Positions 5,776 through 60,913 of a DNA stretch of 64,000 nucleotides are shown here, in pieces. Every line of letters begins with the position of its first letter. Position 1 is the first letter of the stretch. Under the pieces are notes generated by a model, which was given only the letters and a program-made list of their open reading frames with translations, was not told where the DNA came from and did not search any database. The position numbers were made by a program, and so were the translations under genes. Origin of the DNA: Branchiostoma floridae (lineage: Eukaryota > Chordata > Leptocardii > Amphioxiformes > Branchiostomatidae); assembly GCF_000003815.2 (NCBI RefSeq), contig NC_049995.1, forward strand, positions 18,684,363 through 18,748,362. Direction: 5' to 3'.

Positions 5776-6725
5776 ATGGCAGGTCCGGAACGAAAAAAAA
5801 TCACACCTGCCGACAGGCGCCATTTTGATTTTGTGCAAACTTTGCTCCGGATTTCCAAAGAACTCACAGAAGAGGAAACGGCAACCATGAAGTTGTTCTG
5901 CCTGCATCTGCTCCCTAGAGAACAGAGGGCACAACTCAAGCGGATGGTGGATGTTTTCCACAAGCTGATGGAACTTGACAAAATCGACCAGGAAAACTTG
6001 GAATTTATTGAAGAGATCTTGGAAAGAATCGGACGGCAGGACCTGATTCGGGACGTTCTGCGGCGGTTCCAGCCGCCTGACCGAGAGATTCCGGAAAACC
6101 CCGAACTACAGCCGGAAACCCCCGAACTGCAGCCGGAAATCCCCGGGCTCCAGCCGGGAACAACTCAGAAGTTGGCAGATGCAGAAGGTCAGTGACATTT
6201 AATTCGCCTTTCATCTATTAGATTAGTTGGCTTCACATCATAGTATGATGAGAACAAAATCATTTTCATACTATTTAATGTACGAACATGTAGACCAACA
6301 GGGCTTTTTTTTTTAATTACAATTCTTACATAGTCCTGTTATATCTATTGTTTTTGTCTATACGCTGCACGCTAAACCCTAGGCTACAATTTGATACAGT
6401 CAAACATGTCTATAGCGGACACTCAAGGGACTGGAGAAATATAGACAGGTGGCCATTATAGAGAAAATGTTGATCAATTGACCATGAGCAAGCTACACAT
6501 GATTTCAGTTCCTACTAATCTTTCTCACCAAGTAACATTGTCTCGATTGGTAAATTCACCGACAAAGACTTGCACTTTAATGCTCAAGGCATGCATACCT
6601 TCTGCTACCGCCAAAATGACCCTGTCAGGAACTCCAAATCCTCGTAAACTACAATTTCATGTAGACCAATATTGTAACAAAGCTTTTATTCAAATTCCAA
6701 TTCTTACATGTGCTATTTGTGATTG

Positions 6726-6758
<33 letters not shown>

Positions 6759-9700
6759 TATATTGTTATTTTGTCTATACGTTGCACTTAGACAGGCTCT
6801 AGACACAGTTTTTCCCAATATCTACGAGCCGACAGCTTTTTTTCAGCATCTAGATGGAACTGCACATATCGCCGTCAATATGTCGGCATATATCTCCCAA
6901 AAGATCCGGAGTATTTGCCCGATACTACAAAACCCTTTGCTACGATGGTAATTTTTGGTGTGTCATAAGATGAACTGACTCGTCTTATCTCTTTATTAAA
7001 GACTTCCGCAATTTTTGTATTAATTTCCTGTTTTGTTTTTGTTTTCAGGTGACGTGCAGAAACACTTTGACTATGTCATCGAAGAAATCAGCCACAAGTG
7101 GGACGACATGGCCCGGAAGCTGGGATTTCATGATAACAAAATCAAAGAAATCCAAGACTCGGAGCGTGACCACAGCCATAGGTGCAGGGAAATACTGACA
7201 AGATGGAGAAACAGGGAGGGACGTAAAGCTACTCTACAGGTGCTAAAGCAAGCCTTAAAGAATATTGGTGAAACTCGGACAGCAGAGAGCCTAGAAGGTT
7301 TGTATCAAAGTTTTGTAAAAAATGTTCAAATTTACCACCACGATCTACCCTTTATCTAAAAGTTCTGTAGAAAATTATAAGCGTCAAGGTTTTTTCGAGG
7401 TTTTTCCTCTCCATCCAACTTGAAACTACTAGAAACCTCTCTGAATAGTTTATGAAATAGCAAAGACATCTTAATAATCATATTCTATTTGCAGGAAATA
7501 CAACCTCCAACACCTACGTGGTTGTGGACGGTACAGTGCGCATGATCCAAGAAACTCTAGATCATCTTAAAAACTGCCTGGCAACGTTATGTGGCACCAG
7601 AAGGTCACAGGTCAAGTTCAGAGGTTACAAGAAGCACAAGAGCATCCTGGTGCACTTCTCCATCCCGCGGGAGAACACGGCGGTGCTGAGGCACATGGCG
7701 GATCACTCCGACCCGAGACTAGTCTACATGGGCGTCAAGTCACTGCAGATCGACGCTAAAGTTCCAATCAAAGTCACACAGGGGGCGCCGCTGTACGGTG
7801 AGTATTTCTCTTCATTGGCAAGAAGTTGTACTTATTAAAGAGCAAGCTGTTATTTCTCTAAAGGTCTAAATTCAGGTGCTTCGAGTTGGTGTTTCAGTTT
7901 ATGTATTGGGTGCTTTTTTTGGCCACTTTTGCATTTTCTTCCAAGTTATATGTAAATGTTTGAGAAATAGAAAAAGGGAAAGAAAAATGACTGTCGTCAC
8001 ATTGTGTAGGTACTTAACAACATGTCAAAGACATCTCTGATAAATTGTCACAAGCTGTCTTTTATACAGATCATGCCCTGTGTGTTTAAGGTGTACTTTC
8101 CCTCAATCAGCGTCATGTAGACTGCATAACTGTTGATTTGTAAATGCCATATCCCTTTCACTTGCCTTTCAGGTGTCAAGAGACAACTGACGGTCGATGA
8201 CATCGAAGTGGGATGCAGTAACCGAACCAAACACCAGAGGGCGCCCCAGGGCTTGACCAGCCTGTCTGCCCTGAACCTGTTCTCGGACGCCCTGCCGCTC
8301 CATCTGCAGGCAGCCGCGAGTCTAGAGTACCAGGGCTTCTCCTACAGCCTGGTCCGGGCTCTGGTGCAGAAGGACCGGCTCAGAGAACACCAGATGAGGC
8401 AGGCCTTCCAGAACCTCAGGAACGCAGAGGTGGATTCCAACACGCTCCGTCAGAAGGCAGAGGTGGATTCCAACACGATCATGACTTTACGCTCCAAGCT
8501 CAACATCACAGAGAACAGGCTGAAGGAGGCTCTTGAGTCGATCGCAGTTCTTGAAGAAAAGCTGCAGCAGGCTCAAGAATACGCAGAGAAAGTGGCCAAG
8601 CAGGTGACATCTGACGTGACGGAGTACAGGGGAGAGAAGCCACCTGGAGGCTGGCCACAGGAGTACAGGGGAGAGAAGCCGCCTGGAGGCTGGCCACAGG
8701 AGTACAGGGGAGAGAAGCCGCCTGGAGGCTGGCCACAGGAGTACAGGGGAGAGAAGCCGCCTGGAGGCTGGCCACAGGAGTACAGGGGAGAGAAGCCGCC
8801 TGGAGGTTGGTCACAGGAGTACAGGGGAGAGAAGCCACCTGGAGGCTGGTCGGTACAGGCCGAGAAGGCAGATTCAGCTACAGAGACACACCTAACGGAT
8901 CCTGTTGGTACTACAGGGATACCTGGAGATGTGGGCGGTGACGAGGTTGGAGCAGACCCGACTGTAAAGAAAGAAGACGGGAAAACTCCAAGACAAGACG
9001 CTGGCAGTGGGAGCGATGGAAAAGAGGATGTTCTCGGTACAGAGGCACCCATGCAAGAGCAACACACAGCGGGGACAGAAGAAACGGCATCTGGCTCTAC
9101 TGGGGCCTGGGAACAGCCCGTGATCACTTTTGGTGGGAAAGGATCAGAACCTGGAAAGTTTGATTACCCACGCGGGGTTGTGGTGTCGCCTGGCAACGAG
9201 ATATTTGTGGCTGATAAGAACAGGCGAGTCCAAGTCCACAGCACAGAGGGGGTTTACCTCCGCCACTTCCCAACAGTTGTACCGGGTACAGGGGATAAGG
9301 ACATGAAGCCGCATGATGTTTGTATGGACGGTAACGGCACGCTGTGGGTAGTGGGGCGGGGAGAGACAGCCCACCATGTTGTACAGTACAGCACGGACGG
9401 GACCGCCATGGCGGGGTTTGACTTGCAGAAGGGCTATTATGACCGGGGTATTGCGGTGGACATGCGCACTAACCACATCCTGGTGACTGATTGTGACCAA
9501 GGTACAGTTCATGTGTTCCGTCCGGACGGCTCCCTGGTGCGGACAGTCCGGCATCCACGGGGTGAGATGATACGCCCGGGGTACGTCACAGTGGATGGGG
9601 AAGGGAACATTCTTGTGTCGGACTGGAGAAGTTACTCTGTCTACGTGCATGACGAGTCCGGGAAGTTCCTGTTCCAGTTCGGAGGTGAGGGAAGTGGTGA

Positions 9701-9920
9701 AGGTCAGCTGAAGTGGCCCGCAGGCATCTGTACAGACAGCTCAGGGCACATCCTCGTGGCGGACTCTTGGAACGAGAGGGTTCAGATCTTCACACGTCAC
9801 GGCGAGTTTGTCCGTACCGTCCGTACTAGGTCCTCACCGGAAGGCCTGGCTGTGGGGCCGGAAGGGCAGCTGGTTGTGACCAATCATTTGGACCATACTG
9901 TGGCTATATATACCAACTAG
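5776..9920 (+). CDS. Gene A: DED-DD-(alpha/beta)-coiled coil-NHL protein
   Basis: Predicted 903-residue protein from four exons: 5776-6187, 7049-7297, 7495-7797 and 8173-9920. All introns are phase 1 with GT-AG borders, and the exon lengths sum to an exact frame. The ATG directly follows a splice acceptor (TTTTCAG/G), so an upstream non-coding exon is expected. Residues 18-97 form a death effector domain with the RQDL motif at 87-90, followed by a short PELQPE-type tail. Residues 138-220 are a death domain (KWDD core). Residues 221-321 are a small alpha/beta module. From 322 come a helical region, a coiled coil (about 388-468), six EYRGEKPPGGWPQ repeats (8622-8855), an acidic linker, and a six-bladed NHL propeller (about 637-902). 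There is no RING or B-box, so it is not a TRIM. The likely role is a cytosolic sensor or adaptor in apoptosis or immunity; that is inference. Confidence 0.88.
6188..7048 (+). other. Gene A first coding intron with (TA)n tract
   Basis: 861-bp intron from donor GTCAGT to acceptor TTTTCAG. It contains an alternating TA microsatellite at about 6726-6760 and no supported gene. The TGGCTTCACATC stretch near 6227 and the following AT-rich sequence resemble the equivalent intron of gene G near 57581, consistent with common descent of the DD-bearing copies. Confidence 0.7.
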
Positions 9921-14515: not shown

Positions 14516-17417
14516 ATGGCAGGTCCGGTCCGAGAACGAGTCACTGCTGCCGACAGGCGCCATTTTGATTTTATGGAAACTTTGCTCCGTATTTCCGATG
14601 AACTCACAGAAGAGGAAACACAAAACGTGAAGCTGTTCTGCCGACACCTGATCCCCAGAGGCCATGCGGAACAACTCAGACGGGCGGTGGACGTTTTCAA
14701 CAAACTGATAGACCTGGACAAGATCGACCAGGAGAATCTCGACTTTATTGAAGAGATCTTGGAAAGAATCGGACGACAGGACCTGATTCGGGACGTTCTG
14801 CGGCGGTTCCAGCCGCCTGACCGAGAGATTCCGGAAAATCCCGAACTGCAGCCGGGAAATCCCGAACTGCAACCGGGAACAAGTCAGGAGGTGCCAAATG
14901 CAGAAGGTGAGTATTATTTAAGTAAAAATTATTGTACGTGAAGCCTCAATCGAGTCAGCTGCACCTTTCTACTTTGTCCTAAGATACTGAACTGACCTAA
15001 GATATTTTTTCAATGAATATGCTCTTCAAATTGAAAACATTTGAAACCTTTCTGTAAAGTCATTTTATTTTTCAAGTAGCAAAAACATATCTATGCTTAA
15101 TGATTGCAGGAAATGTCACGTCCAATACCTACGTCGTCGTGCACGGCCAAGTGCGCATGATCCAGGAAACTCTGGATCGTCTAAGGAACAACATAGCAAG
15201 GTTATCTAGTACCAGAAGGTCACAGGTCAAGTTCAGAGGTTACAAGAAACACAAGAGTATTCTGGTGCACTTCTCCATACCGCGGGAGAACACGGCGGTG
15301 CTGAGGCACATGGCGGATCACTCCGACCCGAGACTTGTCTACATGGGCGTCAAGTCACTGCAGATCGACGCTGAAGTTCCCATCAAAGTCCAACAAGAGG
15401 CGCTGTGTTACGGTGACTTGACTTCTTTTAATCTTCATATGTACTCCATTTGTGAATTGTAAACTTTTGCAGGTCAATCAAAGTATATAGATGTTACTCA
15501 GCAATCGATTTGATTTTCCGACTTTCCGACCGTCTATAACTACCATTGGACTGAAACTGAGAGCAACTGCATGTTCGACATGTAAATAGAGATATTTCTA
15601 CTTGTACAAGCAGGTTTTTGAGAGATGTTATATCAAACCCTATGTTTAATGATGTTATATGCCATCCCTGACGTGTTACAGATGTCAAGAGGCAACTGCC
15701 TGTAGATGACATCGAGGTGGGATGCAGTACCCGGACCAAACACCAGAGGGCGCCCCAGGGCTGGACCCGTCTGTCTGCCCTGAACCTGTTCTCGGACGCC
15801 CTGCCGCTCCATCTGCAGGCAGCCGCGAGTCTGGAGTACCAGGGCTTCTCCTACAGCCTGGTCCAGGCTCTGGTGAAGAAGGACCGGCTCAGAGAACACC
15901 AGATGAGGCAGGCCATCCAGAACCTCAGGAACGCAGAGGTGGATTCCAACACGCTCCGTCAGAAGGCAGAGGTGGATTCCAACACGCTCCGTCAGAAGGC
16001 AGAGGTGGATTCCAACACGCTCCGTCAGAAGGCAGAGGTGGATTCCAACACGATCATGACTTTGCGCTTCAAGCTCATTATCACAGAGAACATGCTGAAG
16101 GAGGCCCACAAGAAAATCACAGCTCTTGAAGAAAGGCTGCAGAAGGCTCAAGAATATGCAAAGAAGGTCGCGAAGCAGGCACCATCCCGCAAGATCACGA
16201 GAGAGAAGTCGCCTGGATCCCCACCACAAAAGTCCAGGGGAGAGAAAACGCCTGGAGGCGGGCCACAGAAGTACAGGGGAGAGAAGCCGCCTGGAGGCTG
16301 GTCACAGAAGTACAGGGGAGAGAAGCCGCCTGGAGGCTGGCGGAAACAGGTTGTGATGTCAGCAGATGGATCTTCAATGACAAATCTAGCGGGTCCTGTT
16401 GGTACTACAGGGATACATAGAAATGTGGGTAGCAATCCGAGAGAAAACACGACTGTTAAGGAAGAAGACAGGAAAACTCGAGGACAAGACTCTGACAGTG
16501 GGAGCGATGGAAGAGAGGAAGTTCTCGGTAAAGAAGCGCCCACGCAAGAGCGAAACACAGCGGGGACAGAAGGAGCGGCATCTGGCTCTACTGGGGACGT
16601 GAAACAGGGTGCGGTCACTTTTGGTGGGGAAGGATCAGAACCTGGAAAGTTTTCTTACCGACGCGGTGTTGTGGTGTCGCCTAGCAACGAGATATATGTC
16701 GCCGATGGCGGCAACAGGCGAGTCCAAGTCCACAACACGGAGGGGGTTTACCTGCGCCACTTCCCAACAGTTGTACCGGGTACAGGGGATAAGGACATGG
16801 AGCCGCATGGTGTCTGTATGGACGGTAACGGCACGCTGTGGGTTGTGGGACAGGGAGAGACAGCCGATCATGTTGTACAGTACAGCACGGACGGGACCGT
16901 CATGGCGCGGTTTGACCTGAAGAAGATCGGTTATTGCCGCGGCATCGCAGTGGACATGCGCACTAACCACATCCTGGTGACTGATCCAGACCACGGTGCA
17001 GTTCATGTGTTCCGTCCGGACGGCTCCCTGGTGCGGACAGTCCGGCATCCACGGGGTGAGATGACACACCCACAGTACGTCACTGTGGACGGGGAAGGGA
17101 ACATTCTTGTGTCGGACTGGGGCACTCACTGTGTCTATGTGTATGACGAGCCCGGGAAGTTCCTGTTCCAGTTTGGAGGTGAGGGAAGTGGTGAAGGTCA
17201 GATGATTGGTCCCTACGGCATCTGTACAGACAGCTCGGGGCACATCCTCGTGGCGGACTATGGGAACGAAAGGGTTCAGATCTTCACACGTCACGGCGAG
17301 TTTGTCCGGACCGTCCGTACTGGGTTTCTGCCGGAAGGCCTGACTGTGGGACCGGAAGGGCAGCTGGTTGTGACTAGTTCGGATAAAGCCACTGTGACTG
17401 TATATCCTAACTACTGA
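14516..17417 (+). CDS. Gene B: DED-(alpha/beta)-coiled coil-NHL protein, no DD
   Basis: Predicted 809-residue protein from three exons: 14516-14906, 15110-15412 and 15682-17417, joined by phase-1 GT-AG introns. The DED (RQDL intact) carries only a short tail with two ELQPG units. The next intron is only 203 bp, so there is no room for a death-domain exon. The last exon has four 11-residue units (AEVDSNTLRQK type), a degenerate four-copy 13-residue array (about 16200-16350, first copies changed to REKSPGSPPQ and SRGEKTPGGGPQ), an acidic linker and a complete six-bladed NHL propeller (about 16612-17414). No frame damage is seen. It probably shares gene A's role but cannot make DD contacts. Confidence 0.88.
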
Positions 17418-21107: not shown

Positions 21108-23972
21108 ATGGCAGGTCCGGTCCGAGAAAGAGTCACAGATGCCGACAGGCGCCATTTCGATTTTGTGCAAACTTTGCTCCGTATTTCCGATGAACTGACA
21201 GAAGAGGAAACGGCAAACGTGAAGTTGTTCTGTCTGCATCTGATTCCTGAAGGCCAATCGGAACAACTGAAGCGGGCAGTGGACGTTTTCCAAAAGCTGA
21301 TTAAACTGGACAAAATTGACCAGGAGAATCTCGACTTTCTCGAAGAGCTGTTGGAAAGAATCGGGCGTCAGGACCTGATTCGGGATGTTCTGAGACAGTT
21401 CCAGCCGCCTGGCCGAGAGATTCCGGAAAATCCCGAACTGCAGCCGGGAACAAGTCAACAAGGATCAGATGCAGAAGGTGAGTTACAAGCAAGAAAATTA
21501 TGGATAAACCTCAAACAAAAATGGTATTNNNNNNNNNNNNNNNNNNNNNNNNNNNNNNNNNNNNNNNNNNNNNNNNNNNNNNNNNNNNNNNNNNNNNNNN
21601 NNNNNNNNNNNNNNNNNNNNNNNNNNNNGACTTGTTGTCAATTAACATTAACACTTTCATGCTACTTACATTCCAGGAAATGCTACGTCCACACTACGTG
21701 GTCGTGAACGGCCAAGTGCGCATGATCCAGGAAACTCTAGATCGCCTTAGAAACCACATAGCAACGTTATCTGGCAGCAGGAGGTCACAGGTCAAGTTCA
21801 GAGGTTACAAAAAGCACAAGAGCATCCTGGTGCACTTCTCCATACCGCGGGAGAACACGGCGGTGCTGAGGCACATGGCGGATCACTCCGACCCGAGACT
21901 TGTCTACATGGGCGTCAAGTCACTGCAGATCGACGCTGAATTTCCCATCTGTGTTACCACACGACGAGTCTGTGTACAGTGAGTCGACTTTGTATTTTTC
22001 TTCATGGGCAAGAAGTTGTACTTATTAAAGACCAAGCTGTTATTTCTCTAAAAATGTCTAAATTCAGGTGCTTCGAGTTGGTGTTTCAGTTTATGTATTG
22101 GGTGCTTTTTTTGGCCACGTCTGCATTTTCTTACAAGTTACATGTAAATTTTTGAGAAATAGAAAAAGGGAAAGAAAAATGACTGTCGTCACATTGTGTC
22201 GGTACTTAACAACATCTCTGATAAATTGTCACTAGCTGTCTTTTATACAGATCATGCCCTGTGTATTCAAAGTGTACTTTCCTTCAATCAGCGTCATCTA
22301 GACTGCATAACTGTTGATTTGTAAATGTTCTTTCACTTGCCTTTCAGGTGTCAAGAGACAACTGTCGGTCGATGACATCGAAGTGGGATGCAGTACCCGT
22401 TCCAAACACCAGAGGGCGCCCCAGAGCTGGACCCGCCTGTCTGCCCTGAACCTGTTCTCGGACGCCCTGCCGCTCCATTTGAAGGCAGCCGCGAGTCTGG
22501 AGTACCAGGGCTTCTCCTACAGCCTGGTCCGGGCTCTGGTGCAGAAGGACCGGCTCAGAGAACATCAGATGAGGCAGGCCATCAAGAACCTCAGGAACGC
22601 AGAGGTGGATTCCAACACGCTCCGTCAGAAGGCAGAGGTGGATTCCAACACGCTCCGTCAGAAGGCAGAGGTGGATTCCACCACGATCATGACTTTGCGC
22701 TCCAAGCTCAACATCACAGAGAACAGGCTGAAGGAGGCTCTTGAGACAAACGAGGTTCTTGAAGAAAAGCTGCAGCAGGCTCAAGAATACGCTGAGAAAG
22801 CTGCCAAGCAGGTGACATCCCACGTGATGGAGTACAGGGGAGAGAAGCCGCCTGGAGGCTGGCCACAGGAGTACAGGGGAGAGAAGCCGCCTGGAGGCTG
22901 GCCACAGGAGTACAGGGGAGAGAAGGCAGATTCAGCTACACAGACACACCTAGCGGGTTCTGTTGGTACTACAGGGAGACCTGGAGATGTGGGCGACAAC
23001 CTTGGAGAAGACCCGACTGTAACGGAAAAAGAAACTCCAAGACCACACTCTGGCAGTAAGAGCGATAAAAGAGAGGATATTTTCGGTACAGGAGCAACCG
23101 AGCAAGAGCGACACACAGCGGAGGCAGAAGGAGCGGCATCTGGTCCCACTGGGGACAAGAAACAGGGTGTCATCACTTTTGGTGGGGAAGGATCAGAACC
23201 GGGAAAGTTTGATTACCCGCGCGGGGTTGTGGTGTCGCCTGGCAACGAGATATTTGTGGCTGATAAGGACAACAGGCGAGTCCAAGTCCACAGCACGGAG
23301 GGGGTTTACCTTCGCCACTTCCCAACAGTTGTACCGGGTGCAGGGGGTAAGTACATGGAGCCAGATGATGTTTGTATGGACGGTAACGGCACGCTGTGGG
23401 TAGTGGGGCGAGGATGGACAGCTGACCATGTTGTACAGTACAGCACGGACGGGACCGTCATGGCGCGGTTTGATCTGGAGAAGATCGATTATTTCCGCGG
23501 CATTGCAGTGGACGTGCGCACTAACCACATCCTGGTGACTGATGCATACCAAGATGCAGTTCATGTGTTCCGACCGGACGGCTCCCTGGTGCGGACAGTC
23601 CGGCATCCTGAGGGTAAGATGATACACCAACGGTACGTCACTGTGGACGGGGAAGGAAACATTCTTGTGTCGGACAGGGACAGTAACTTTGTCTACGTGT
23701 TTGACGAGTCCGGGAAGTTCCTGTTCCAGTTCGGAGGGAAGGGAAGCGGTGAAGGTCAGTTGCGAAATCCTTCAGGCATCTGTACAGACAGCTCGGGTCA
23801 CATCATCGTGGCGGACCGTGGGAACGAGAGGGTTCAGATTTTCACACGTCACGGCGAGTTTGTCCGAACCGTCCGTACTGGGTTTAAGCCGGAAGGCCTG
23901 GCTGTGGGACCGGAAGGGCAGCTGGTTGTTAGTTTTTGGAACGATACTGTGACTGTCTATCCCAGCTATTAG
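21108..23972 (+). CDS. Gene C: DED-coiled coil-NHL protein with damaged third-type exon
   Basis: Exons are 21108-21477 (DED, RQDL intact, one ELQPG tail unit), 21677-21978 (alpha/beta module) and 22348-23972 (coiled coil and NHL). The middle exon is 302 instead of 303 bases: two single-base deletions near 21690-21697 (TCCACACTACG where F has TCCAACACCTACG) and one extra base near the 3' end. Read through, it stops about 25 codons in. Skipping it joins two phase-1 borders and gives an intact 664-residue DED-NHL protein. The last exon has three 11-residue units, only two full 13-residue repeats plus a partial one (22830-22925), and a full NHL propeller (about 23168-23969). A 100-base gap lies just before the damaged exon, so a DD exon cannot be fully excluded, and assembly error is possible. 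It could be a pseudogene. Confidence 0.72.
21529..21628. other. Assembly gap in gene C intron
   Basis: Exactly 100 N, a conventional placeholder of unknown true length. Confidence 0.98.
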
Positions 23973-33800: not shown

Positions 33801-34994
33801 GACTACAGGGGAGAGAAGCCGCCTGGAGGCTGGCCGCGGGACTACAGGGGAGGGAAGCCGCCTGGAGAAACGCTACAGGAGTACAGGAAAGAGAAGCCGC
33901 CTGGAGGATGGTCGGCACAGGTCGAGAAGGCAGATGCAGCTACACAGACACACCTGGCGGGTCCTGTTGATACTACAGGGAGACCTGGAGATAAGGGCGA
34001 CAAGCTTGGAGAAGACCGGACTGCAAAGGAAGAAGGCAAAACAGTTGCAATGCAAGATTCTGACAGTGATAGAAGAGTGGAAATCCTCGGTACAGAAGCG
34101 CCCGAGCAAGAGCGACACACAGCGGAGATAGATCTAGAAGGAGTGGCACATGGCTCTACTGGGGACTTGAAACAGGGAGTGATCACTTTTGGCGGGGAAG
34201 GAACAGAACCTGGAAAGTTTCAGTTCCCACGTGGCGTTGTGGTGTCACCTAGCAACGAGATATTTGTGGCTGATAAAAATAACGGGCGAGTCCAAGTCCA
34301 CAGCACAGAAGGGGTTTACCTGCGACACTTCCCAACACGGGGTACGGTCATAACACAACATGATGTTTGTATGGACGGTAACGGCACGCTGTGGGTAGTG
34401 GGGGGAGGAAAGACAGCTGACCGTGTTGTACAGTACAGCACGGACGGGACCGCCATGGCGGGGTTTGACCTTAGGAGTAACCGTTATCTCCGTGGCATTG
34501 CATTGGATATGCGCACTAACCACATCCTGGTGACTGATCCAGACAAAGGTGCAGTTGAGGTGTTCCGTCCGGACGGCTCCCTGGTGCGGACAGTCCGGCA
34601 TCCACGGGATGGGGAGATGACACTCCCACATTACGTCACTGTGGACGGGGAAGGAAACTTTCTTGTGACGGACTTAATAAATCACTGTGTCTACGTGTAT
34701 GACGAGTCCGGGAAGTTCCTGTTCCAGTTCGGAGGGAAGGGAAGTGGTGAAGGTCAGCTGTGGAATCCTCACGGCATCTGTACAGACAGCTCGGGTCACA
34801 TCCTCGTGGCGGACTATGGAAGGATTCAGATCTTCACACGTCACGGCGAGTTTGTCCGGACCATCCGTACTGGGTCTGAGCCGGAAGGCCTGGCTGTGGG
34901 ACCGGAAGGGCAGCTGGTTGTGACTGATTGGGATAACCACACTGTGACTGCATTTCCTGACTGGCTGTGGGACCGGAAGGGCAGCTGGTTGTGA
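30807..34994 (+). CDS. Gene D: DED-DD-(alpha/beta)-coiled coil-NHL protein with altered C terminus
   Basis: Predicted 904 residues from exons 30807-31221, 32176-32424, 32594-32896 and 33247-34994, all phase 1. The DED has RQDL followed by I-W instead of I-R, and three ELQPE-type tail units. The death domain is complete. The last exon begins EFKRRK rather than VKRQL. It has four 11-residue units, two with VHSNA changes, and four 13-residue repeats (33762-33917), one of them GGKPPGETLQ. The NHL propeller lacks about five residues in the loop before blade 2 and two in blade 5 (ADYGRIQIF). A 71-bp tandem duplication (34890-34960 repeated from 34961) shifts the frame in the last blade, replacing the usual end (V-x-FPNY) with WLWDRKGSWL. 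The old stop is at 35036-35038. Confidence 0.85.
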
Positions 34995-38942: not shown

Positions 38943-41900
38943 ATGGCAGGTCCGATCCGAGAAAGCAGAGTAACAGCTGCCGACAGACGCCATTTTGATT
39001 TCATGGAAACGTTGCTCCGTATTTCCGATGAACTCACAGAAGAGGAAACGGCAAACTTAAAGATCTTCTGCCTGCATCTCATTCCTAAGGGCCAACTAGC
39101 ACAGCTTAGGCGGGCAATGGACGTTTTCGTCAAGCTCATGGAACTGGACAAAATCGACCAGGAAAACTTGGAGTTTATTGAAGAAATCTTGGAAAGAATC
39201 GGCAGACAGGACCTGATTCGGGACGTTCTGCGACGGTTCCAGCCGCCTGACCGAGAGATTCCGGAAAATCCCGAACTCCAGCCGCCTGGCCGAGAGATTC
39301 CGGAAGATTCCGAACTCCAGCCGGAAACCCCCGAACTGCAGCCGGAAACCTCCGAACTGCAGCCGGAAACCTCCGAACTGCTCCCCGAAACCCCCGTACT
39401 GCCGCCAGAGAACCCTGAACCCCAACCAGAAAACCCAGAACTCCAACCAGGCGAAAGCAATTCATATCAAGCCAATGAAGGTGATTTTTAATGTATTAAC
39501 ATACAATTATTTCTAACGCCTTACTATTTTATACGCTTTTATATTTCTACAACGTCAAGTACAGCTTTCCTAGTCCAAAACTCTCATTTCTACGTGGAGA
39601 AGAATGTAGAAATATTTGAGATGTTTTTTAGATATTTCTGTAAATTCCTGTTTTAATTGGCATAAACGTGTCAATGTGTCTGCAAATTCATTTTTGATTC
39701 ACATTAACATATCAAAAATTATTCATTGAAGGAACTACAACGTCCAACATCTACGTGGTCGTGCACGGCACAGTGCGCATGATCCAGGAAACTCTAGATC
39801 ATCTAAGAAACTGCCTGGCAACGTTAATTGGCACCAGAAGGTCACAGGTCAAGTTCAGAGGTTACAAGAAGCACAAGAGCATCCTGGTGCACTTCTCCAT
39901 ACCGCGGGAGAACACGGCGGTGCTGAGGCACATGGCGGATCACTCCGACCCAAGACTTGTCTACATGGGCGTCAAGTCACTGCAGATCGACGCTATCAAG
40001 GTTCAACCGGGAGCGCCTGTGTACGGTGAGCTGACTTTGTGTTTGTCTTCATATGCTTGTAGTTGTGATTATCATAGACTTAGTTGGTATTTCTCTACGG
40101 GTCTGAATTCAGGCGCATTCAGTTGGTATTCCAGTTTATGTATTGAGTTGTTTTATTTTGGCAATGTTTACATTTTTCTTCTAAGTTACAAGAAAATTTT
40201 AGAGAAAAGGAAAAAGGATTATCGACGCTCTCAACGTCACTTTTCGTAATAGGTACTTTACAACATGTCTAAAACATGTCTAATAGATGTGTAATAGATT
40301 GTCCCTAGCTGTCATTTTCTATACAGATAAAGCTCTATGTACTAGAAATGCACTTTCCATACATCAGAACCATCTAGACTGCTTTTTTGTTGATTTGTGA
40401 AGTTCTTTTCACTAAATGTCTTTCAGATGTCAAGAGACAGCTGCCTGTTGACGACATCGAGGTGGGGTGCAGTACCCGGAACAAACACCAGAGGGCGCCC
40501 CAGAGCTGGACCCGCCTGTCTGCCCTGAACCTGTTCTCGGACGCCCTGCCGCTCCATCTGCAGGCAGCCGCGAGTCTGGAGTACCAGGGCTTCTCCTACA
40601 GCCTGGTCCGGGCTCTGGTGCAGAAGGACCGGCTCAGAGAACACCAGATGAGGCAGGCCATCCAGAACCTCAGGAACGCAGAGGTGGATTCCAACACGCT
40701 CCGTCAGAAGGCAGAGGTGGATTCCAACACGCTCCGTCAAAAGGCAGAGGTGGATTCCAACACGATCATGACTTTTCGCTCCAAGCTCGACATCACAGAG
40801 AACAGACTGAAGGAGGCCCTTGAGACGATCACAACTCTTGAAGAAAAGCTGCAGCAGGCTCAAGAATACGCAGAGAAAGCCGCCAAGCAGGTGGCATCCC
40901 ACGTGACGGAGTACAGGGGAGAGAAGCCGCCTGGAGGCTGGCCGGCACAGGTCGAGAATGCAGATGCAGCTACACAGACACACTTAACGGATCCTGTTGG
41001 TACTGCAGGGATACCTGGAGGTGTGGGTGACAAGGTTGGAGCAGACCCGACTGCAAAGGAAGAAGACGGGAAAGTTCTCGGTACAGGACCACCCGAGCAA
41101 GAGCGACACACAGCGGAGACAGAAGGAGCGGCATCTCGCTCTACTGGAGAGTTGGAACAGGTTGTGATCACTTTTGGCGGGATGGGAACAGAACCTGGAA
41201 AATTTTATCATCCACGCGGGGTTGTGGTGTCGCCTAGCAACGAGATCTATGTGGCAGAAAGAGACAACAGGCGAGTCCAAGTCCACAGCACGGAGGGGGT
41301 TTACCTGCGCCACTTCCCAACAGTTGTAACGGGTACAGGGGATAAGGACATGCGGCCACATGATGTCTGTATGGACGGTAACGGCACGCTGTGGGTAGTG
41401 GGGCGAGGAGAGACAGCTGACCATGTTGTACAGTACAGCACGGACGGGACCACCATGACGCGGTTTGACATTAAGAATAGCTCTTATTACCGTGGTATTG
41501 CAGTGGACATGCGCACTAACCACATCCTGGTGAGTGATCCAGACCAATGTGCAGTTGAGGTGTTCCGTCCGGACGGCTCCCTGGTACGGTCAGTCCGCCA
41601 TCCACGGGATGGGGAGATGACGCGCCCACGGTACGTCACTGTAGACGGGGAAGGGAACATTCTTGTGACGGACTTGATAAGTCACTATGTCTACGTGTAT
41701 GACAATTCCGGGAAGTTCCTGTTCCAGTTCGGAGGTTATGGAAGTGGTGAAGGTCAGCTGAATGAGCCCCGCGGCATCTGTACAGACAGCTCGGGGCACA
41801 TCATCGTGGTAGATACTGGGAACGAGAGGGTTCAGATCTTCACACGTCACGGCGAGTTTGTCCGTACTGTCAATACTGGATTTGAGCCGGAAGGCCTGGC

Positions 41901-41973
41901 TGTGGGACCGGGAGGACAGCTGGTTGTGACCAATTGGAATAACGAAACTGTAACTGTATTTCCTAACTACTGA
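38943..41973 (+). CDS. Gene E: DED-(alpha/beta)-coiled coil-NHL protein, no DD
   Basis: Predicted 792 residues from exons 38943-39480, 39732-40025 and 40427-41973, phase 1 throughout. The DED tail is strongly expanded, with about nine PELQPE-like units (39253-39450) including a duplicated PPGREIPE block. The DED-to-module intron is only 251 bp, so there is no DD exon. Its acceptor is TTGAAG, weaker than the TTGCAG or TTCCAG of its paralogues, so this exon may be skipped at times. The alpha/beta exon is three codons short (no EVP before IKV). The last exon has three 11-residue units, a single 13-residue repeat (40909-40944), a short acidic linker and a full NHL propeller (about 41164-41970). 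No frame damage is seen. Confidence 0.87.
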
Positions 41974-45378: not shown

Positions 45379-48300
45379 ATGGCAGGTCCGGTCCGAGAAA
45401 GAGTCACAGATGCCGACCGGCGCCATTTTGATTTTGTGCAAACCTTGCTCCGTATTTCCGATGAACTGACAGAAGAGGAAACAAAAAACGTGAAGTTGTT
45501 CTGCCGACACCTGATCCCCAGAGGACATGCAGAACAACTCGATCGAGCGGTAGACGTTTTCAACAAACTGATAGACCTGGACAAAATCGACCAGGAGAAT
45601 CTCGACTTTATTGAAGAGATCTTAGAAAGAATCGGCCGACAGGACCTGATTCGGGACGTTCTGCGACGGTTCCAGCCGCCTGACCGAGAGATTCCGGAAA
45701 ATCCCGAACTGCAACCGGGATCAAGTCAACAGGGAGCAGATGCAGAAGGTGAGTTACAACATCATCGAGAAAATTATATATAAACCTCAAGCAAAAATCA
45801 ATTTTCTGCTCGGCAGCCTTGTCTCGTCATAGAAAGACATTTCTATGGAATTTGCTCTCAACCCAACTAGTAAAAGAAATTATACGAAAACATAAATTAT
45901 GCAAATGAGTTTCTCATTACCATATTTTTCATCTGCTTACATTCCACCTATTATAATATAATATTATAATCAACAATTGTTACATTGGACATTTATTGAA
46001 GTCCTTTAATTATGCAAATGAATTCCTCATCTGCATAACATACATATCATTATGAACATCTTTGCCCAAGCTACCTGCATGCCTAAAATGATGCCAATTC
46101 GTCAATCCTTTCTGCAGTTATCCTCTTTGGAATGTCTTGGCAAAAACGCCCCTGCAGTTCCAAAGTTAAATGTTAGAGGGCTGAAACCTGCCCCACTTTG
46201 TCATGACACTGCAAACTATCTACCACTTAAATGTCAAGACCATATGACATTCAGGACAAGAGATACATAGAAAAAACTGCTGTGATAATATATTCGCATT
46301 AATTATGCAAATGTACTTCTATTTTGCGTAATTAGCATGTCATTTTATAAAAAATTGTCCAAAGTATTTACCTACCAAAAATCATGACAATCCGTTGTTC
46401 CCTTCTTGAGTTATCGTCTTAAGGAGTTTTTGACTAAAATTCCCCTGCCATCCCAAACCTAGTCGGTAGGGGGCCAAAACTTATGTCACTTATTCCTGAG
46501 CACAAGAGCTATCTAACACCTCAAATCGTGACCGTGGCTTGTTCAGAACACGAAAAAGCAAACTTGAAAGTTGCGCTGCAGTACCAAGGGGACCCGCTAG
46601 GGGGCCCAAAATCTTATCAATTTTAGCATTCATTACACACTACCAACACACCAAGTATGGAACCAAACCACCCAACCTTGAATTATCTTATTTACACACA
46701 AACGCACATACACATACACACACACAAACAGACAAACGCAGGGTAAAATATAACCTCCATGACATTTCATGGAGGTAACAATACTGCGAACTTGTTTTCA
46801 ATTAACATTAACACTTTCATTGATACTTGATATTCCAGGAAATGTAACCTCCAACACCTACGTTGTCGTAAACGGTCAAGTGCGCATGATCCAGGAAACT
46901 CTAGATCGCCTTAGGAACCACATAGCAACGTTATCTGGCACCAGAAGGTCACAGGTCAAGTTCAGAGGTTACAAGAAGCACAAGAGCATCCTGGTGCACT
47001 TCTCCATACCGCGGGAGAACACGGCGGTGCTGAGGCACATGGCGGATCACTCCGACCCGAGACTTGTCTACATGGGCGTCAAGTCACTACAGATCGACGC
47101 TGAAGTTCCAATCAAAGTCAGACAGGGGGCGCCGCTGTACGGTGAGTCGACTTTGTATTTCTCTTCATTGGCAAGAAGTTGTACTTATTAAAGACCAGCT
47201 GTTATTTCTCTAAATGTCTAAATTCAGGTGCTTCGAGTTGGTGTTTCAGTTTATGTATTGGGTGCTTTTTTTGGCCACTTTTGCATTTTCTTTCAAGTTA
47301 CATGTAAATTTTTGAGAAATAGAAAAAGGGAAAGAAAATGACTGTCGTCACATTGTGTAGGTACTTAACAACATTTCAAAGACATCTCTGATGAATTGTC
47401 ACTAGCTGTCTTTTATACAGATATGTGTATTCCCTCAATCAGCGTCATGTAGACTGCATAACTGTTGACTTATAAATGCCACATCCTTTTCACTTGCCTT
47501 TCAGGTGTCAAGAGACAACTGCCGGTCGATGACATCGAAGTGGGCTGCAGTACCCGGACCAAACACCAGAGGGCGCCCCAGAGCTGGACCCGCCTGTCTG
47601 CCCTGAACCTGTTCTCGGACGCCCTGCCGCTCCATCTGCAGGCAGCCGCGAGTCTGGAGTACCAGGGCTTCTCCTACAGCCTGGTCCGGGCTCTGGTGCA
47701 GAAGGACCGGCTCAGAGAACACCAGATGAGGCAGGCCATCCAGAACCTCAGGAACGCAGAGGCGGATTCCAACAAGCTCCGTCAGAAGGCAGAGATGGAT
47801 TCCAACACGCTCCGTCAGAAGGCAGAGGTGGATTCCAACACGATCATGACTTTGCGCTCAAAGCTCAACATCTCAGAGAACAGGCTGAAGGAGACTCTTG
47901 AGACGATCTCAGTTCTTGAAGAAAAGCTGCAGAAGGCTCAAGAATACGCAGAGAAAGCCGCCAAGAAGGTAACATCCCACGTGACGGAGTACAGGGGAGA
48001 GAAGCCGCCACAGGAGTACAGGGGAGAGAAGTCGCCTGGAGGCTGGCCAAAGGAGTACAGGGGAGAGAAGCCGCCTGGAGGCTGGCCACAGGAGTACAGG
48101 GGAGAGAAGCCGCCTGGAGGCTGGCCACAGGAGTACAGGGGAGAGAAGCCGCCTGGAGGCTGGCCACAGGAGTACAGGGGAGAGAAACCGCCTGGAGGCT
48201 GGCCACAGGAGTACAGGGGAGAGAAGCCGCCTGGAGGCTGGTCGGCACAGGTCGAGAAGGCAGATGTAGAGTCACCGACACACCAAGCGGGTACTGTTGG

Positions 48301-49318
48301 TACGACAGCGAGACCTGGAGATGCGGGTGATATGCTTGGAGATGACCCGGTTGTGAAGGAAGAACACAGGAGAGCAACAACGCAAGACTCTGACAGTGGG
48401 AGCGATGGAAGAGAGGATGTTTTCGGTATAGAAGCAACCGAGCAAGAGAAACACCAAGCGGGGATAGTAGGAGCGGCATCTACTGGGGACTTGAAACAGG
48501 GTGTGGTCACTTTTGGCGGGAAAGGATCGGAACCCGAAAAATTTTCGTTCCCACGTGGCGTTGTGGTGTCGCCTAGCAACGAGATATTTGTGACTGATAC
48601 ACTCAACAAGCGAGTCCAAGTCCACAGCACAGAGGGGGTTTACCTGCGCCACTTCCCAACAGTTGTACCGGGTACTGGGGATAAGGTCATGCAGCCACAT
48701 GATGTCTGTATGGACGGTAACGGCACGCTGTGGGTAGTGGGGCGGGGAGAGACAGCTGAGCATGTTGTACAGTACAGCACGGACGGGACCGCCATGGCGC
48801 GGTTTGACTTGGAGAAGGGCTATCTTTTCCACGGGATTGCACTAGACATGCGCACTAACTACATCCTGGTGAGTGATCCAGACCAAGGTGAAGTTCTTGT
48901 GTTCCGTCCGGACGGCTCCATGGTGCGGACAGTCCGGCATCCACGGGCTGGGGAGATGACACGCCCCGGGTACGTCACTGTGGACGGGGAAGGAAACATT
49001 CTTGTGACGGGTCCGGACTTGAGAAGTCACTATGTCTACGTGTATGACGAGTCCGGGAAGTTCCTGTTCCAGTTCGGAGGTGAGGGAAGTGGTGAAGGTC
49101 AGCTGAAGTTTCCCCACGGCATCTGTACAGACAGCTCGGGTAACATCATCGTGGCGGACCGTGGGAACGAGAGGATTCAGATCTTCACACGTCACGGCGA
49201 GTTTGTCCGTACCGTCCATACTGGGCTTAAGCCGGAAGGCCTGGCTGTGGGACCGGAAGGGCAGCTGGTTGTGACCGATAGATGGAACAACACTGTGATT
49301 ATATTTCCTAACTACTGA
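45379..49318 (+). CDS. Gene F: DED-(alpha/beta)-coiled coil-NHL protein, no DD
   Basis: Predicted 828 residues from exons 45379-45748, 46839-47141 and 47505-49318, phase 1. The DED has RQDL and a single ELQPG tail unit. The 1,090-bp following intron has no DD exon and carries the second copy of the hairpin-ended repeat. The last exon has three 11-residue units (one ADSNK, one MDSN) and the longest 13-residue array here: one truncated plus six full units (47987-48243). The NHL propeller (about 48503-49315) has a two-residue insertion in blade 4 (TGPDLRSHY). It is intact. The alpha/beta exon protein sequence is almost identical to that of gene A, and the intron before the last exon is also close to A, C and G. 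Confidence 0.88.
45873..46777. mobile_element. Hairpin-ended interspersed repeat, copy 2 (gene F intron)
   Basis: Homologous to 25303-26399: shared CATAAATTATGCAAAT, TTCTGCAGTTATCCTCTTTGG and AGGGGGCC blocks in the same order, a (CA)n-like stretch near 46690-46735, and the terminal hairpin ACCTCCATGACATTTCATGG followed by AGGT at the right end. The left terminal copy of the inverted repeat is missing. Confidence 0.7.
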
Positions 49319-56429: not shown

Positions 56430-59400
56430 ATGGCAGATCCAGTGCGAGAAAGAGTCACAGCTGCCGACAGGCGCCAGTTTGATTTTGTTCAAACCTTGCT
56501 CCGTATTTCTAAAGAACTCACAGAAGAGGAAACTGCAATCATGAAGTTGTGCTGCCTGCATCTGATCCCCAAAAGACAGGCGACACAACTCAAGCGGGCG
56601 GTGGACGTTTTCCACAAGCTGATGGAACTGGACAAAATTGACCAGGAAAACTTGGAGTTTATGGAAGAGATTCTGGAAAGAATCGGACGACAGGACCTGA
56701 TTCGGGACGTTCTGCGGCCGTTCCAGCCCCCGAACCGAGAGATTCCGGAAAATCCCGAACTCCAGCCGGAAAAGCCCGATCTCCAGCCGGAGTACCCCGA
56801 GCACCCGCCGGAAAACCTAGAGGTTCAGCCGACAGACCCCGAGCTCCAGTCGGAAAACCCCGAGCTCCAGCCGGAAAACCCCGAGATCCAGTCGGAAAAC
56901 CCCGAGCTCCAGTCGGGAACAAGTCTGGAAGGGACGACAGCAGATGGTGAGTAACATGAAGGAAACTTTTAAACCTCATAAAAAACTGTCCGTACAACAT
57001 GCCGTGTAATTTCAACCCAATTGAGATATGTAAGGGCTTAAACTGCCAGCGTCAATTTTGAGACTAGGAGGCTCATTTTAAATATTTGTTGGCAACAATT
57101 CTATGGTAATAAAGTAAGTTTTTTCAATTTACGTGTTGCCGTGGAAACGAGTTTCCGACAGTAATATTTTACAAAATTCACTAATATCGGGTTACATGAG
57201 GTTTCTAAGTAATAAATGCTTATGTGATGACGTAATCTGTCATAATCTAAATGGGAGAACGATATCTTTAGGTTTTAATCAGGTTATTGTCACTCGACTA
57301 AAATTACTACTTTGTATTTTATTTTACAGGTGGACTTTTTAGTCTGTTTCTATGGTGTTTTGTTGGTATATTTGGAATAAATTGTAGTTAGAAAATGTAA
57401 GAATGCAGATCTAAGATATAGGATCTCAAAGGAGATCAGCAAATACCAATAACGCCCCCCCACCCCCTATCGGCCCCAGAATTAAAACAGAAGCCCAGGC
57501 TAGATAGTGTTAACTTATTACATATCAAGTTCAAGATGAATTTCAATTTACCGTGCATCTATAAGAGTATTTGCCGTAGCTGGCTTCACATCCAAGTAAA
57601 ATAGATTTTCATAGTATTTAAAGTATGTAGTCAAATAGTGTAACAATGTATAGTTTACATAACTGAACCATTTGTTTTGTATTACAATTATAACATAGCG
57701 ATTCTATAGCGTATTGTACAATAAGCTGCACTCTAGGCTTAGGCTACAATGTTTTAGCTTTTAGTGTGTCATGAGATAAACAGAATTATCTCATCTCCTT
57801 ACGGCGGACTTCGGCCATTTTGTATTCGTATTTCTTCCAGCATGGTGGGAAGTAGTTCCAGGTGACGTGCTGGGACATTTCGACGATGTAATCCAGGAAG
57901 TCAGCCACAAGTGGGACGACCTGGCCCGGGAGCTGGGATTTCAGCATAACGAAATCAAAGTAATCCGAGACTTGGAGCGTGACCATGACCGCAGGTGCAG
58001 GGAAATGCTGACCAGGTGGAGAAACAGGGAGGGAAGGGGAGCTACTTTACAGGTCTTAAATCAAGCCTTAATGAACATTGGTGAAACCCGGACAGCAGAG
58101 AGCCTGGAAGGTTTGTATGATAGTTTTGTAATAAATGTTAAAAGTTACTATCATGATCTACTATTAACTAGAAGTTCTGTAGCACAATTAATGGATTCAG
58201 AAATTTGCTCTCAATCGAACTAGAAGCCATCTAAAAATCATTTTGAATACCTTTTTTAATTTTTGCAGGAAATGCTACCTCCAACATCTACGTGGTCTTG
58301 CACGGCGCAATGATCCAAGAAACTCTAGATCATCTTAAAAACTGCCTGGCAACTTTATGTGGCGCCACAAGGTCACAGATCAAGTTCATAGGTCACAAGA
58401 AGCACAAGAGCATCCTGGTACACTTCTCCATACCGCGGGAGAACACGGCGGTGCTGAGGCACATGGCGGATCACTCCGACCCGAGACTTGTCTACATGGG
58501 CGTCAAGTCACTGCAGATCGACGCTGACGTTCCCATCAAAGTCCAACAGGGGGCGCCGGTGTACGGTGAGTCGACTTTGTATTCCTCTTCATTGGTAAGC
58601 AGTTGCAATTATTATGGTACTTCTCTACATGTCTAAATTCAGGTGCTTTGAGTTGGTGTTTTAGTTTATGTATTGAGTAGTTTTCTTTTGGCAACGTTTG
58701 CATCTTTTAATCTTCCAGGTTACATAAACATTTTAGAGAAATAGAAAAAGGGAAAGAAAGAAAATAAAAAGACATCGCATTGTGTAGATACAACATGTCA
58801 AAGACGTGTCTGATAGACATCTCTAATAAATTGTCATTAGCTGTCTATTATACAGATCATGTCCTGTGTATTCAAAGTGTACTTTCCATCAATCAGAGTC
58901 ATCTAGACTACATATCTGTTGATTTCTAAATGCCACATCCCTTTCACTTGCCTTTCAGGTGTCAACAGACAACTGTCAGTTGATGACATCGAGGTGGGCT
59001 GCAGTACCCGGACCAGACACCAGAAGGCGCCCCAGAGCTGGACCCGCCTGTCTGCCCTGAACCTGTTCTCGGACGCCCTGCCGCTCCATCTGCAGGCAGC
59101 CGCGAGTCTGGAGTACCAGGGCTTCTCCTACAGCCTGGTCCGGGCTCTGGTGCAGAAGGACCGGCTCAGAGAACACCAGATGAGGCAGGCCATCCAGAAC
59201 CTCAGGAACGCAGAGGTGGATTCCAACACGCTCCGTCAGAAGGCAGAGGTGGATTTCAACACGCTCCGTCAGAAGGCAGAGGTGGATTCCAACACGATCA
59301 TGACTTTGCGCTCAAAGCTCAACATCGCAGAGAACAGGCTGCAGGAGGCTCTTGAGACGATCACAGTTCTTGAAGAAAAGCTGCGGCAGGCTCAAGAATA

Positions 59401-60913
59401 CGCAGAGAAAGCCGCCAAGCAGGTGACATCCCACGTGACGGAGTACAAGGGAGAGAAGCCGCCTGGCGGCTGGCCACAGGAGTACAGGGGAGAGAAGCCG
59501 CCTGGAGGCTGGTCACAGGAGTACAGGGGAGAGAAGCCGCCTGGAGGCTGGTCACAGGAGTACAGGGGAGAGAAGCCGCCTGGAGAAACGCTACAGGGGT
59601 ACAGGGGAGAGAAGCCGCATAGAGGATGGTCGGCACAGGTCGAGAAGGCAGATGCAGCTACAGAGACACACCTGGCGGGTCCTGTTGATACTACAGGGAG
59701 ACCTGGAGATAAGGGTGACAAGCTTGGAGAAGACCCGACTGCAAAGGAAGAAGGCAAAACAGTTGCAATGCAAGATTCTGACAGTGAGAGTGATAGAAGA
59801 GTGGAAATCCTCTGTACAGAAGCACCCGAGCAAGAGCGACACACAGCGGAGATAGATCTAGAAGGAGTGGCACATGGCTCTACTGGGAACTTGAAACAGC
59901 GTGTGATCACTTTTGGCGGGGAAGGAACAGAACCTGGAAAGTTTCAGTTCCCACGTGGCGTTGTGGTGTCACCTAGCAACGAGATATTTGTGACTGATAA
60001 AAATAACGGGCAAGTCCAAGTCCACAGCACAGAGGGGGTTTACCTGCGCCACTTCCCAACACGGGGTACGGTCATAACAACACATGATGTCTGTATGGAC
60101 GGTAACGGCACGCTGTGGGTAGTGGGGCGGGGAGGGACAGCTGACCATGTTGTACAGTACAGCACGGACGGGACCGCCATGGCGGGGTTTGAACTGAAGA
60201 TGAGCAATGATACCCGCGGCATCGCAGTGGACATGCGCACTAACCACATCCTGGTGAGTGATCCAGACCAAGGTGAAGTTCTTGTGTTCCGTCCGGACGG
60301 CTCCCTGGTGCGGACAGTGCAGCATCCGCGGGGTGAGATGACACACCCACGGTACATCACTGTGGACGGGGAAGGGAACATTGTTGTGTCGGACTGGGTT
60401 ACTTACTGTGTCTACGTTTATGACGAGTCCGGGAAGTTCCTGTTCCAGTTCGGAGGTGAGGGAAGTGGTGAAGGGGAAAAACCTACTAAGTACTTCTTAA
60501 ACTTGGAAAAGAAAAGAGGAAGTGACAAGGATATTAACTTGTTATCCATTGATGGGAGAGAGATTAGTAGAGACTCAGATATTCTTAGTGAATGTAAGGA
60601 ATACTATGAACAACTATACCAGGAAGACAATATAAGTGATATAGACATAGATCAGTACTTAGAAAGTGTACAGTTAGAAAATATCTTGAGCCAAACTGAC
60701 AGAGAATTCTTAGATAAACCAATTACTAAAGATGAATGTAAGGATGCCCTTTTCTCTATGAAAGAAAACAAAAGCCCTGGCCTTAATGGCATTCCCTCAG
60801 AATTTTTTAAGATGTTTTGGCCCTATATAGGAGACCTAGTTTATAATTCTATCCAGGAAACATTGATAGAAGGTAAAATGTCTGTTTTGCAAAGACGTGC
60901 AATGCTAAGTTAA
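56430..60913 (+). CDS. Gene G: DED-DD-(alpha/beta)-coiled coil-NHL protein, C terminus replaced by LINE sequence
   Basis: Exons are 56430-56946, 57862-58110, 58269-58565 and 58959-60913, phase 1; the open reading frame would give 1,005 residues. The DED starts MADPVRE and has the longest proline-rich tail (about nine ELQ-E/S units, 56746-56925). The DD is complete. The alpha/beta exon is two codons short and has IKFIGHKKHK where all others have VKFRGYKKHK. The last exon has three 11-residue units and five 13-residue repeats (59441-59632). The NHL propeller is intact through blade 4 (59903-60475) and stops at GSGEG, where it passes in frame into LINE reverse transcriptase (EKPTKYFLNLEKKR) for about 146 residues. 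Blades 5 and 6 are gone. It is either a pseudogene or a chimera of unknown function. Confidence 0.78.
56947..57861 (+). other. Gene G first coding intron
   Basis: 915-bp AT-rich intron from donor GTGAGT to acceptor TTCCAG. A poly-C/A patch lies near 57456-57470. No coding content is supported. Confidence 0.7.

Follow-up and report, generated by a model that had tools for sequence, protein, structure and literature searches.

We report a computational analysis of 64 kb of the Branchiostoma floridae genome, hereafter the window (C17:18684363–18748362 of a 513-Mb genome; plain numbers below are positions within it). The window contains seven copies of one gene type, all on the plus strand between 5776 and 60913, in which a death effector domain (DED) and sometimes a death domain (DD) are followed by a TRADD-N domain, a long helical region and an NHL β-propeller. 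The copies belong to a larger tandem array, and in our view the products of this array are probably soluble immune receptors that act inside the cell and form a large family. A reading made from the letters of the window alone (the sequence-only reading) had likened the genes to a receptor array, and the results support it: the propeller varies on one face, largely through nonsynonymous change, and DED and TRADD-N are mostly constrained. A conserved signalling end, a variable recognition end, growth of the array and recombination are, taken together, in keeping with a family of immune receptors.

Each gene consists of a DED exon starting with MAGP or MADP, an optional DD exon, a TRADD-N exon and a single long last exon, which encodes the helical region, a repeated 14-residue unit of the EYRGEKPPGGWPQ type and the NHL propeller (Table 1). 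DED, TRADD-N and the helical region are found in all seven copies, DD in three (genes 1, 4 and 7) and a complete NHL propeller in six. The exon joins were inferred from splice sites, phase and conservation among the copies. Apart from the broken TRADD-N exon of gene 3, all internal boundaries are AG/GT and in phase 1, so that gain or skipping of a DD exon or a TRADD-N exon would leave the frame intact. Genes 1, 2, 4, 5 and 6 are open from end to end. A count of seven intact genes was considered and rejected, since the TRADD-N exon of gene 3 is frameshifted and the NHL of gene 7 is cut by a retroelement. The sequence-only reading had placed seven same-strand paralogues at 5776–60913, and all seven were located; its end coordinate, however, falls inside the retroelement, as the NHL of gene 7 ends near 60475, where the frame continues into a non-LTR (long terminal repeat) element.

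Pfam profiles were searched with the spliced models of genes 1, 2, 4, 5 and 6 and with two single exons. DED (PF01335) was matched at 58–65 bits (cut-off 35.9) and NCOA6_TRADD-N (PF13820) at 32–37 bits (cut-off 22.5) in all five spliced models; with the two single exons included, the NCOA6_TRADD-N range is 32–38 bits. The Death (61–63 bits), TRADD-like_N (32–40 bits) and NHL (91–101 bits) matches likewise lie above their Pfam cut-offs, and SGL and the six-bladed DUF5128 were additional propeller matches. Thus, DED, DD and NHL, which had been proposed from the sequence alone, and TRADD-N score above cut-off in the scanned models, and exon order and Pfam agree with the proposed order DED–(DD)–α/β–coiled coil–NHL, with the helical region in the place of the coiled coil. 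The α/β domain of that order is present in each copy, and its description is amended to TRADD-N of the NCOA6 type. The five spliced models gave no match to RING or B-box, as had been stated, nor to NACHT, NB-ARC, WD40 or HET.

The AlphaFold model of the gene 6 NHL (mean predicted local distance difference test score, pLDDT, 93.8; predicted template-modelling score, pTM, 0.92) has 24 strands in six blades, and its first strand completes blade 6 in a velcro closure. The top solved structures in a Foldseek search were the NHL propellers of TRIM3, TRIM2, Thin and TRIM71/Lin41, with TM scores of 0.85–0.88. The propeller class is therefore NHL, by sequence and fold, and assignment to WD40 was rejected. 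The TRADD-N model is weak (pLDDT 75, pTM 0.59), with an order of strands and helices that is compatible with the TRADD-N fold. This model matched no solved structure at E ≤ 0.001, and sequence searches of the PDB with TRADD-N returned only one match, at E = 1.2, which we take to be due to chance. The TRADD-N motif of the family of Kaur et al. (2021) is a tiny residue followed by serine between strands 2 and 3. In the array genes the serine lies in a KKHKS motif in 18 of 19 aligned copies, where the preceding residue is lysine and not a tiny residue; the 19th copy belongs to gene 3, whose frameshift puts the reading out of register. In 18 intact models the highest 19-residue Kyte–Doolittle mean is 1.06, and none has a transmembrane-like stretch; the proteins are probably cytosolic.

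The array extends on both sides of the window. Over about 606 kb, measured as the span of the helical-region exons, we located 62 or more last exons, of which 59 are on the plus strand and three on the minus strand. Exon-level matches between 18.286 and 18.906 Mb number at least 67 for DED, 59 for TRADD-N, 13 for DD, 62 for the helical region and 65 for NHL; these are lower bounds, with 150 of 172 DED, 150 of 275 DD and 142 of 776 NHL candidates scored. By position, 55 of the 59 plus-strand last exons have DED, TRADD-N and NHL matches in order, and at least 13 genes have a DD. The median gene spacing is 8.05 kb, and some 0.2 Mb separate the end of the array from that of the contig. We read 25 genes in full, the seven in the window and 18 from a contiguous 220 kb (18.275–18.495 Mb). 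All 25 have DED, TRADD-N and helical-region matches, six have a DD and 19 have an NHL in frame to its end; 18 are intact under one splice rule, in which the best in-phase GT was chosen with no score threshold. A decay of similarity with distance along the array was considered and rejected (Spearman coefficients of −0.13 to 0.14).

Six dispersed relatives were found, one each on C7, C10, C11 and C12 and two on C18. Those on C10 and C11 and one of those on C18 contain all of DED, TRADD-N, the helical region and an NHL, although in each of the three the NHL is interrupted or incomplete in frame. The C7 relative runs into an assembly gap and has no NHL within the piece that was read. The gene on C11 (L030, L038) is solitary, with two DEDs, TRADD-N, a helical region and a partial NHL, and is a candidate for the ancestral or single-copy type.

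We consider it very improbable that the DED and NHL exons belong to different, alternating transcripts. One locus (L054, C17:18495001–18496600) passes from a DED exon directly to an NHL frame of 303 residues, with neither TRADD-N nor a helical region in between, which would suit separate transcripts. Against this stand the conserved phase-1 AG/GT boundaries in 18 complete models of 25, the same order at the solitary loci on C10, C11 and C18, and the single-chain Branchiostoma proteins combining DED, TRADD-N and a propeller that are described in the accessible text of PMC8195603. A further locus, C17:18525444–18526839, resembles L054 by position alone.

Selection was analysed in 19 genes, including the non-intact gene 3. 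Mean pairwise ratios of nonsynonymous to synonymous divergence (dN/dS) are highest for NHL, at 0.68, against 0.21 for DED, 0.37 for TRADD-N and 0.30 for the N-terminal part of the helical region (residues 1–78 of the last exon). In a FUBAR-style grid analysis under the MG94 model, which was home-made and used a threshold of P(β>α) > 0.9, positively selected sites number 30 of 286 in NHL, none of 113 in DED, one of 90 in TRADD-N and one of 78 in the helical part. The lone TRADD-N site may be an artefact, since the first TRADD-N codons of gene 3 are out of frame. At several NHL sites β/α is far above 1. When separate trees were used for six segments, 24 of the 286 NHL sites were selected, and four null simulations with neither positive selection nor recombination gave 2–5 false sites of 286.

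The sites are unevenly placed on the propeller, for which strands were taken from the AlphaFold model. The D–A and B–C loops, which form one face, have a ratio of nonsynonymous to synonymous differences (pN/pS) of 1.08 (bootstrap range 0.82–1.43) and 19 selected sites among 86, whereas the A–B and C–D loops of the other face have a pN/pS of 0.33 (0.18–0.64) and none among 54 (Fisher p = 6 × 10−5 between the faces). Strand codons have a pN/pS of 0.48 and 11 selected sites among 127. The 40 most variable columns fall in the D–A and B–C loops (32) and the strands (eight), with none in the A–B and C–D loops. Variation and, we infer, diversifying selection are thus concentrated on one propeller face, with constraint on the opposite face and on the death-fold exons.

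Within-blade slots on this face match positions at which LIN41 contacts RNA. Kumari et al. (2018; PMC5908797) list 14 RNA-contacting residues of LIN41. In human TRIM71 numbering of the motifs, 12 of these occupy the last one or two positions ahead of the P-x-G/D turn or the first two positions following V-A/S/T-D, and the remaining two lie one residue past the proline. With slots matched to TRIM71 by within-blade register, the array propellers have 24 ligand-type slots, the mean entropy of which is 2.07 against 0.46 in the other 248 columns; the associated p value of 1.7 × 10−13 is descriptive, since the slots were defined after the alignment had been inspected. Paralogues differ at 9–21 of the 24 slots (median 17). 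This correspondence, together with NHL propellers being the closest fold, is what an RNA sensor or regulator would show if the face bound RNA as in LIN41 and Brat, each paralogue preferring its own motif and the death-folds signalling on viral RNA: 12 of the 14 LIN41 contacts fall in slot types that are hypervariable in the array genes. The net charge of the 24 slots ranges from −3 to +6 across the 19 genes, unlike the positive top patch described for RNA-binding NHLs (PMC9070667 and PMC9634614, accessible text), which argues against one shared RNA-backbone ligand. We regard the RNA alternative as unlikely.

A set of NHL propellers outside the family served as a control. NHL matches outside the array are mostly 46–56% identical, the exception being a lone partial NHL at C17:11234084–11234617 (11.23 Mb), far from the array, which is 76% identical to the array NHLs. 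Two outside loci, the first some 60 kb downstream of the array and the second at C17:17.31 Mb, were read through; both are TRIM-NHL genes, in which the Pfam search used for the array genes does find RING and B-box. NHL clusters are located on the same chromosome at C17:18948501–18967868 and C17:17249668–17508715. The control comprised 13 of the 18 NHL matches in the latter (17.25–17.51 Mb), of which one was read upstream and has RING and B-box. In these 13 propellers pN/pS is 1.00 (0.81–1.22) for the D–A and B–C loops, 0.42 (0.23–0.77) for the other face and 0.68 (0.49–0.92) for strands, and slot entropy is 2.18 versus 0.54; the pattern is thus given by regional pN/pS and slot entropy rather than by site tests. 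Because the control NHLs share it, a hypervariable face extends beyond the death-fold family, and we rejected the idea that one-face variability is special to the DED–NHL genes. In a tree with one outgroup, the NHLs of the 19 genes and of the solitary genes on C11 and C18 group in one clade with bootstrap 100, in keeping with a single fusion; whether this clade nests within the amphioxus TRIM-NHLs is not decided by that tree.

Exchange among copies is indicated for the propeller. A test of the pairwise homoplasy index (PHI) type gave 0.627 versus 0.699 (s.d. 0.010; p = 0.001, 1000 permutations) for NHL and was not significant for DED, TRADD-N and the helical region, which are shorter. NHL nearest neighbours shift between segments. 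Synonymous divergence is 0.417 in DED, 0.233 in TRADD-N, 0.195 in NHL and 0.126 in the helical region. A complete open NHL with its linker, lacking upstream exons, is found on the plus strand at C17:18378218–18379024, and it is our speculation that such loose cassettes act as conversion donors.

The same observations might be explained by relaxed constraint and gene conversion, with a face that varies as nothing depends on it and an array that is a by-product of unequal crossing-over. The seven non-intact copies among the 25 read, the isolated NHL pieces without other exons, the retroelements within the array and the recombination detected in NHL are all in keeping with this. Eighteen of the 25 copies are nevertheless intact, constraint is seen within the same exon on the strands and on the opposite face, β/α far exceeds 1 at several sites and the separate NHL cluster repeats the pattern in its regional pN/pS and entropy. 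In our judgement these points make relaxed constraint improbable.

Several points weigh against the immune-receptor interpretation itself. Its support is the anatomy and evolution of the genes, as computed from sequences and models. The seven broken genes count here also, as do the threshold-free splice rule, the reading in full of 25 of at least 62 array genes and the descriptive nature of the slot p value. Only ten of the 30 selected sites fall inside the 24 slots and 20 lie elsewhere; 11 are on strands, several of them V/I or S/T changes. The pN/pS of the D–A and B–C loops taken whole is not significantly greater than 1, and recombination can inflate site tests, the home-made codon test having been calibrated without it.

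The outline of this gene type is already in print. The sequence-only reading knew of no named family with this order, and 'no known family' was rejected. According to the accessible text of Kaur et al. (2021; eLife, PMC8195603), Branchiostoma has expansions of 13–129 NCOA6-clade TRADD-N proteins with DED, a linker and a 'WD40' propeller; the propellers vary in repeat number and sequence, which is attributed to recombination, and it is suggested that they may directly recognise invaders. Both descriptions share DED followed by TRADD-N, a low-complexity linker, a C-terminal β-propeller, large expansion and variable blade number. They differ in that the published propeller is called WD40, while that of the window genes is NHL. 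We read this as a difference in naming, because Pfam also gives SGL and six-bladed DUF5128 matches. The array genes fit the published family except in propeller class; the expansion (at least 62 last exons and six dispersed relatives) and the recombination match. The main text of PMC8195603 makes no mention of NHL, hypervariable or positive selection, and in the text examined the DD exon and the chromosomal array are unmentioned.

In the 19 aligned copies NHL is 266–273 residues long and forms one six-bladed propeller in every case. A minus-strand gene at C17:18788501–18791501 (L053) has a single open frame of 929 residues in its last exon, which encodes the helical region, the repeats and two NHLs, both complete. 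Blade number does vary, then, as Kaur et al. wrote, and a constant six blades across the family was rejected. A second pair of NHLs at C17:18311190–18312632 is partly assembled, with an incomplete first propeller. The NHL at C17:18311190–18311999 had been taken for an orphan cassette, which was rejected, as a second NHL precedes it in the same frame of 501 residues.

One-face variation and selection at LIN41-type contact slots were not seen in print in the open-access main texts. No paper was found in the open-access literature that joins amphioxus, death effector domain and NHL, nor one on an amphioxus tripartite motif NHL expansion, and hypervariable, positively selected propeller immune receptors turned up from fungi alone. 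In the accessible text, Zhang et al. (2008; PMC2575513) covers shuffling of DED and DD in amphioxus, with NHL and TRADD unmentioned, and Marin (2012; PMC3503706) mentions Branchiostoma TRIMs and, in the part examined, not an NHL expansion.

TRIM-NHL proteins (TRIM2/3/71, Thin, Brat) resemble the array genes in having a six-bladed NHL after a helical region, with the same fold and the same ligand-face slots; they carry RING and B-box where the array genes carry DED, DD and TRADD-N. NLR/STAND receptors differ in their NACHT or NB-ARC NTPase. The closest mechanistic parallels are the fungal HNWD NLRs and the fish NLR-B30.2 and finTRIM families. In the HNWD NLRs (HET-E family), every WD repeat has four selected positions, which lie on the propeller's interaction surface (PMC4986451, accessible text). 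They and the array genes combine a death-type effector with a propeller selected at few positions per repeat on one face and exchange between paralogues, but the HET domain, WD40, the NACHT NTPase and internally highly conserved repeats are features of the fungal proteins and not of the array genes; we would call the resemblance analogous and not homologous. As far as the accessible texts go, zebrafish NLR-B30.2 (PMC4852459) and finTRIM (PMC2657112) genes likewise show one variable recognition domain common to TRIM and death-type receptor families, with gene conversion, positive selection and many genes near chromosome ends; the domain is B30.2 instead of NHL, and the NACHT/LRR (leucine-rich repeat) core has no counterpart in the array genes.

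By analogy with the fungal receptors, the propellers might tell conspecific self from non-self instead of recognising pathogens. The 18 models lack a membrane-spanning stretch, which argues against such allorecognition. We also know of no cell fusion in lancelets that would require it, and we give this explanation little weight, despite HET-E, with its four selected positions per WD repeat (PMC4986451, accessible text), being the closest mechanistic parallel.

The immune-receptor interpretation, which we prefer, suggests the following mechanism. DED, sometimes with DD, and TRADD-N would form a conserved signalling platform, the long helical region would probably be a coiled-coil oligomeriser and the repeats would be a flexible linker. 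The variable NHL face of D–A and B–C loops would bind ligand, and bound ligand would cluster the proteins through the helical region. The death-folds could then nucleate assemblies and recruit partners with DED or DD, for example caspase-8-like or FADD-like proteins, with cell death or an inflammatory response as the outcome. Tandem duplication, exchange between NHL exons by recombination, and diversifying selection acting on the ligand face would generate the diversity. We give about even chances to a broader proposal, that one hypervariable NHL head, a LIN41-type RNA surface diversified by selection and recombination, feeds both a RING ligase (in TRIM-NHL) and DED/DD/TRADD-N outputs; the array genes would then be an NTPase-free animal counterpart of the fungal HNWD NLRs, and the loose NHL cassettes might be conversion donors.

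Other features of the array and the window were noted. Simple pattern counts in the last exons of the 25 read genes gave 0–8 copies of the 14-residue unit and 1–10 of an RQKAEVDSNTL unit, and these variable repeats are apparently a protein-coding minisatellite linker. Clusters of death-domain exons at C215:481918–714798 and C6:361618–1847102, the closest members of which are 66–72% identical to the array DD exon, are a possible source of the optional DD. Within the window, non-LTR (L1-like) retroelement frames including reverse-transcriptase-like sequence occupy 60475–63042 and a second reverse-transcriptase-like frame lies at 51016–52041, both named by eye from the translation. Intergenic NHL fragments at 27685–27871, 34961–35035, 49492–49605 and 50875–50967 are remnants of further copies. 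An open frame at 43–360 has a tandem NFEKDS-type repeat and is unlike the array genes.

Table 1. Exons of the seven gene copies (positions within the window)
Gene	Feature	Positions	Strand	Remarks
1	DED exon	5776..6187	+	ATG; donor AAG/GTCAGT (exon/intron)
1	DD exon	7049..7297	+	
1	TRADD-N exon	7495..7797	+	
1	Last exon	8173..9920	+	Helical region, 14-residue repeats, NHL, stop
2	DED exon	14516..14906	+	
2	TRADD-N exon	15110..15412	+	
2	Last exon	15682..17417	+	Helical region, repeats, NHL
3	DED exon	21108..21477	+	
3	TRADD-N exon	21676..21971	+	Broken: frameshift near start; adjoins N (assembly) gap
3	Last exon	22348..23972	+	Helical region, repeats, NHL; open
4	DED exon	30807..31221	+	
4	DD exon	32176..32424	+	
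4	TRADD-N exon	32594..32896	+	
4	Last exon	33247..34994	+	Helical region, repeats, NHL; C-terminal tail short, altered
5	DED exon	38943..39480	+	Tail longer, proline-rich
5	TRADD-N exon	39732..40025	+	
5	Last exon	40427..41973	+	Helical region, repeat, NHL
6	DED exon	45379..45748	+	
6	TRADD-N exon	46839..47141	+	
6	Last exon	47505..49318	+	Helical region, repeats, NHL
6	NHL propeller	48497..49315	+	AlphaFold-modelled
7	DED exon	56430..56946	+	
7	DD exon	57862..58110	+	
7	TRADD-N exon	58269..58565	+	
7	Last exon	58959..60475	+	To break within NHL; retroelement frame follows

If the genes are indeed immune receptors, a large system of variable receptors would be added to an invertebrate chordate, the 24 slots would provide a concrete candidate binding surface and the propeller class of the published family would be corrected. 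The comparison with the TRIM-NHL-type cluster suggests that the same recognition head may serve ubiquitin-ligase and death-fold outputs. Fish B30.2 and fungal WD40 domains would be parallels, and the finding would bear on the convergence of receptors that have neither NTPases nor LRRs.

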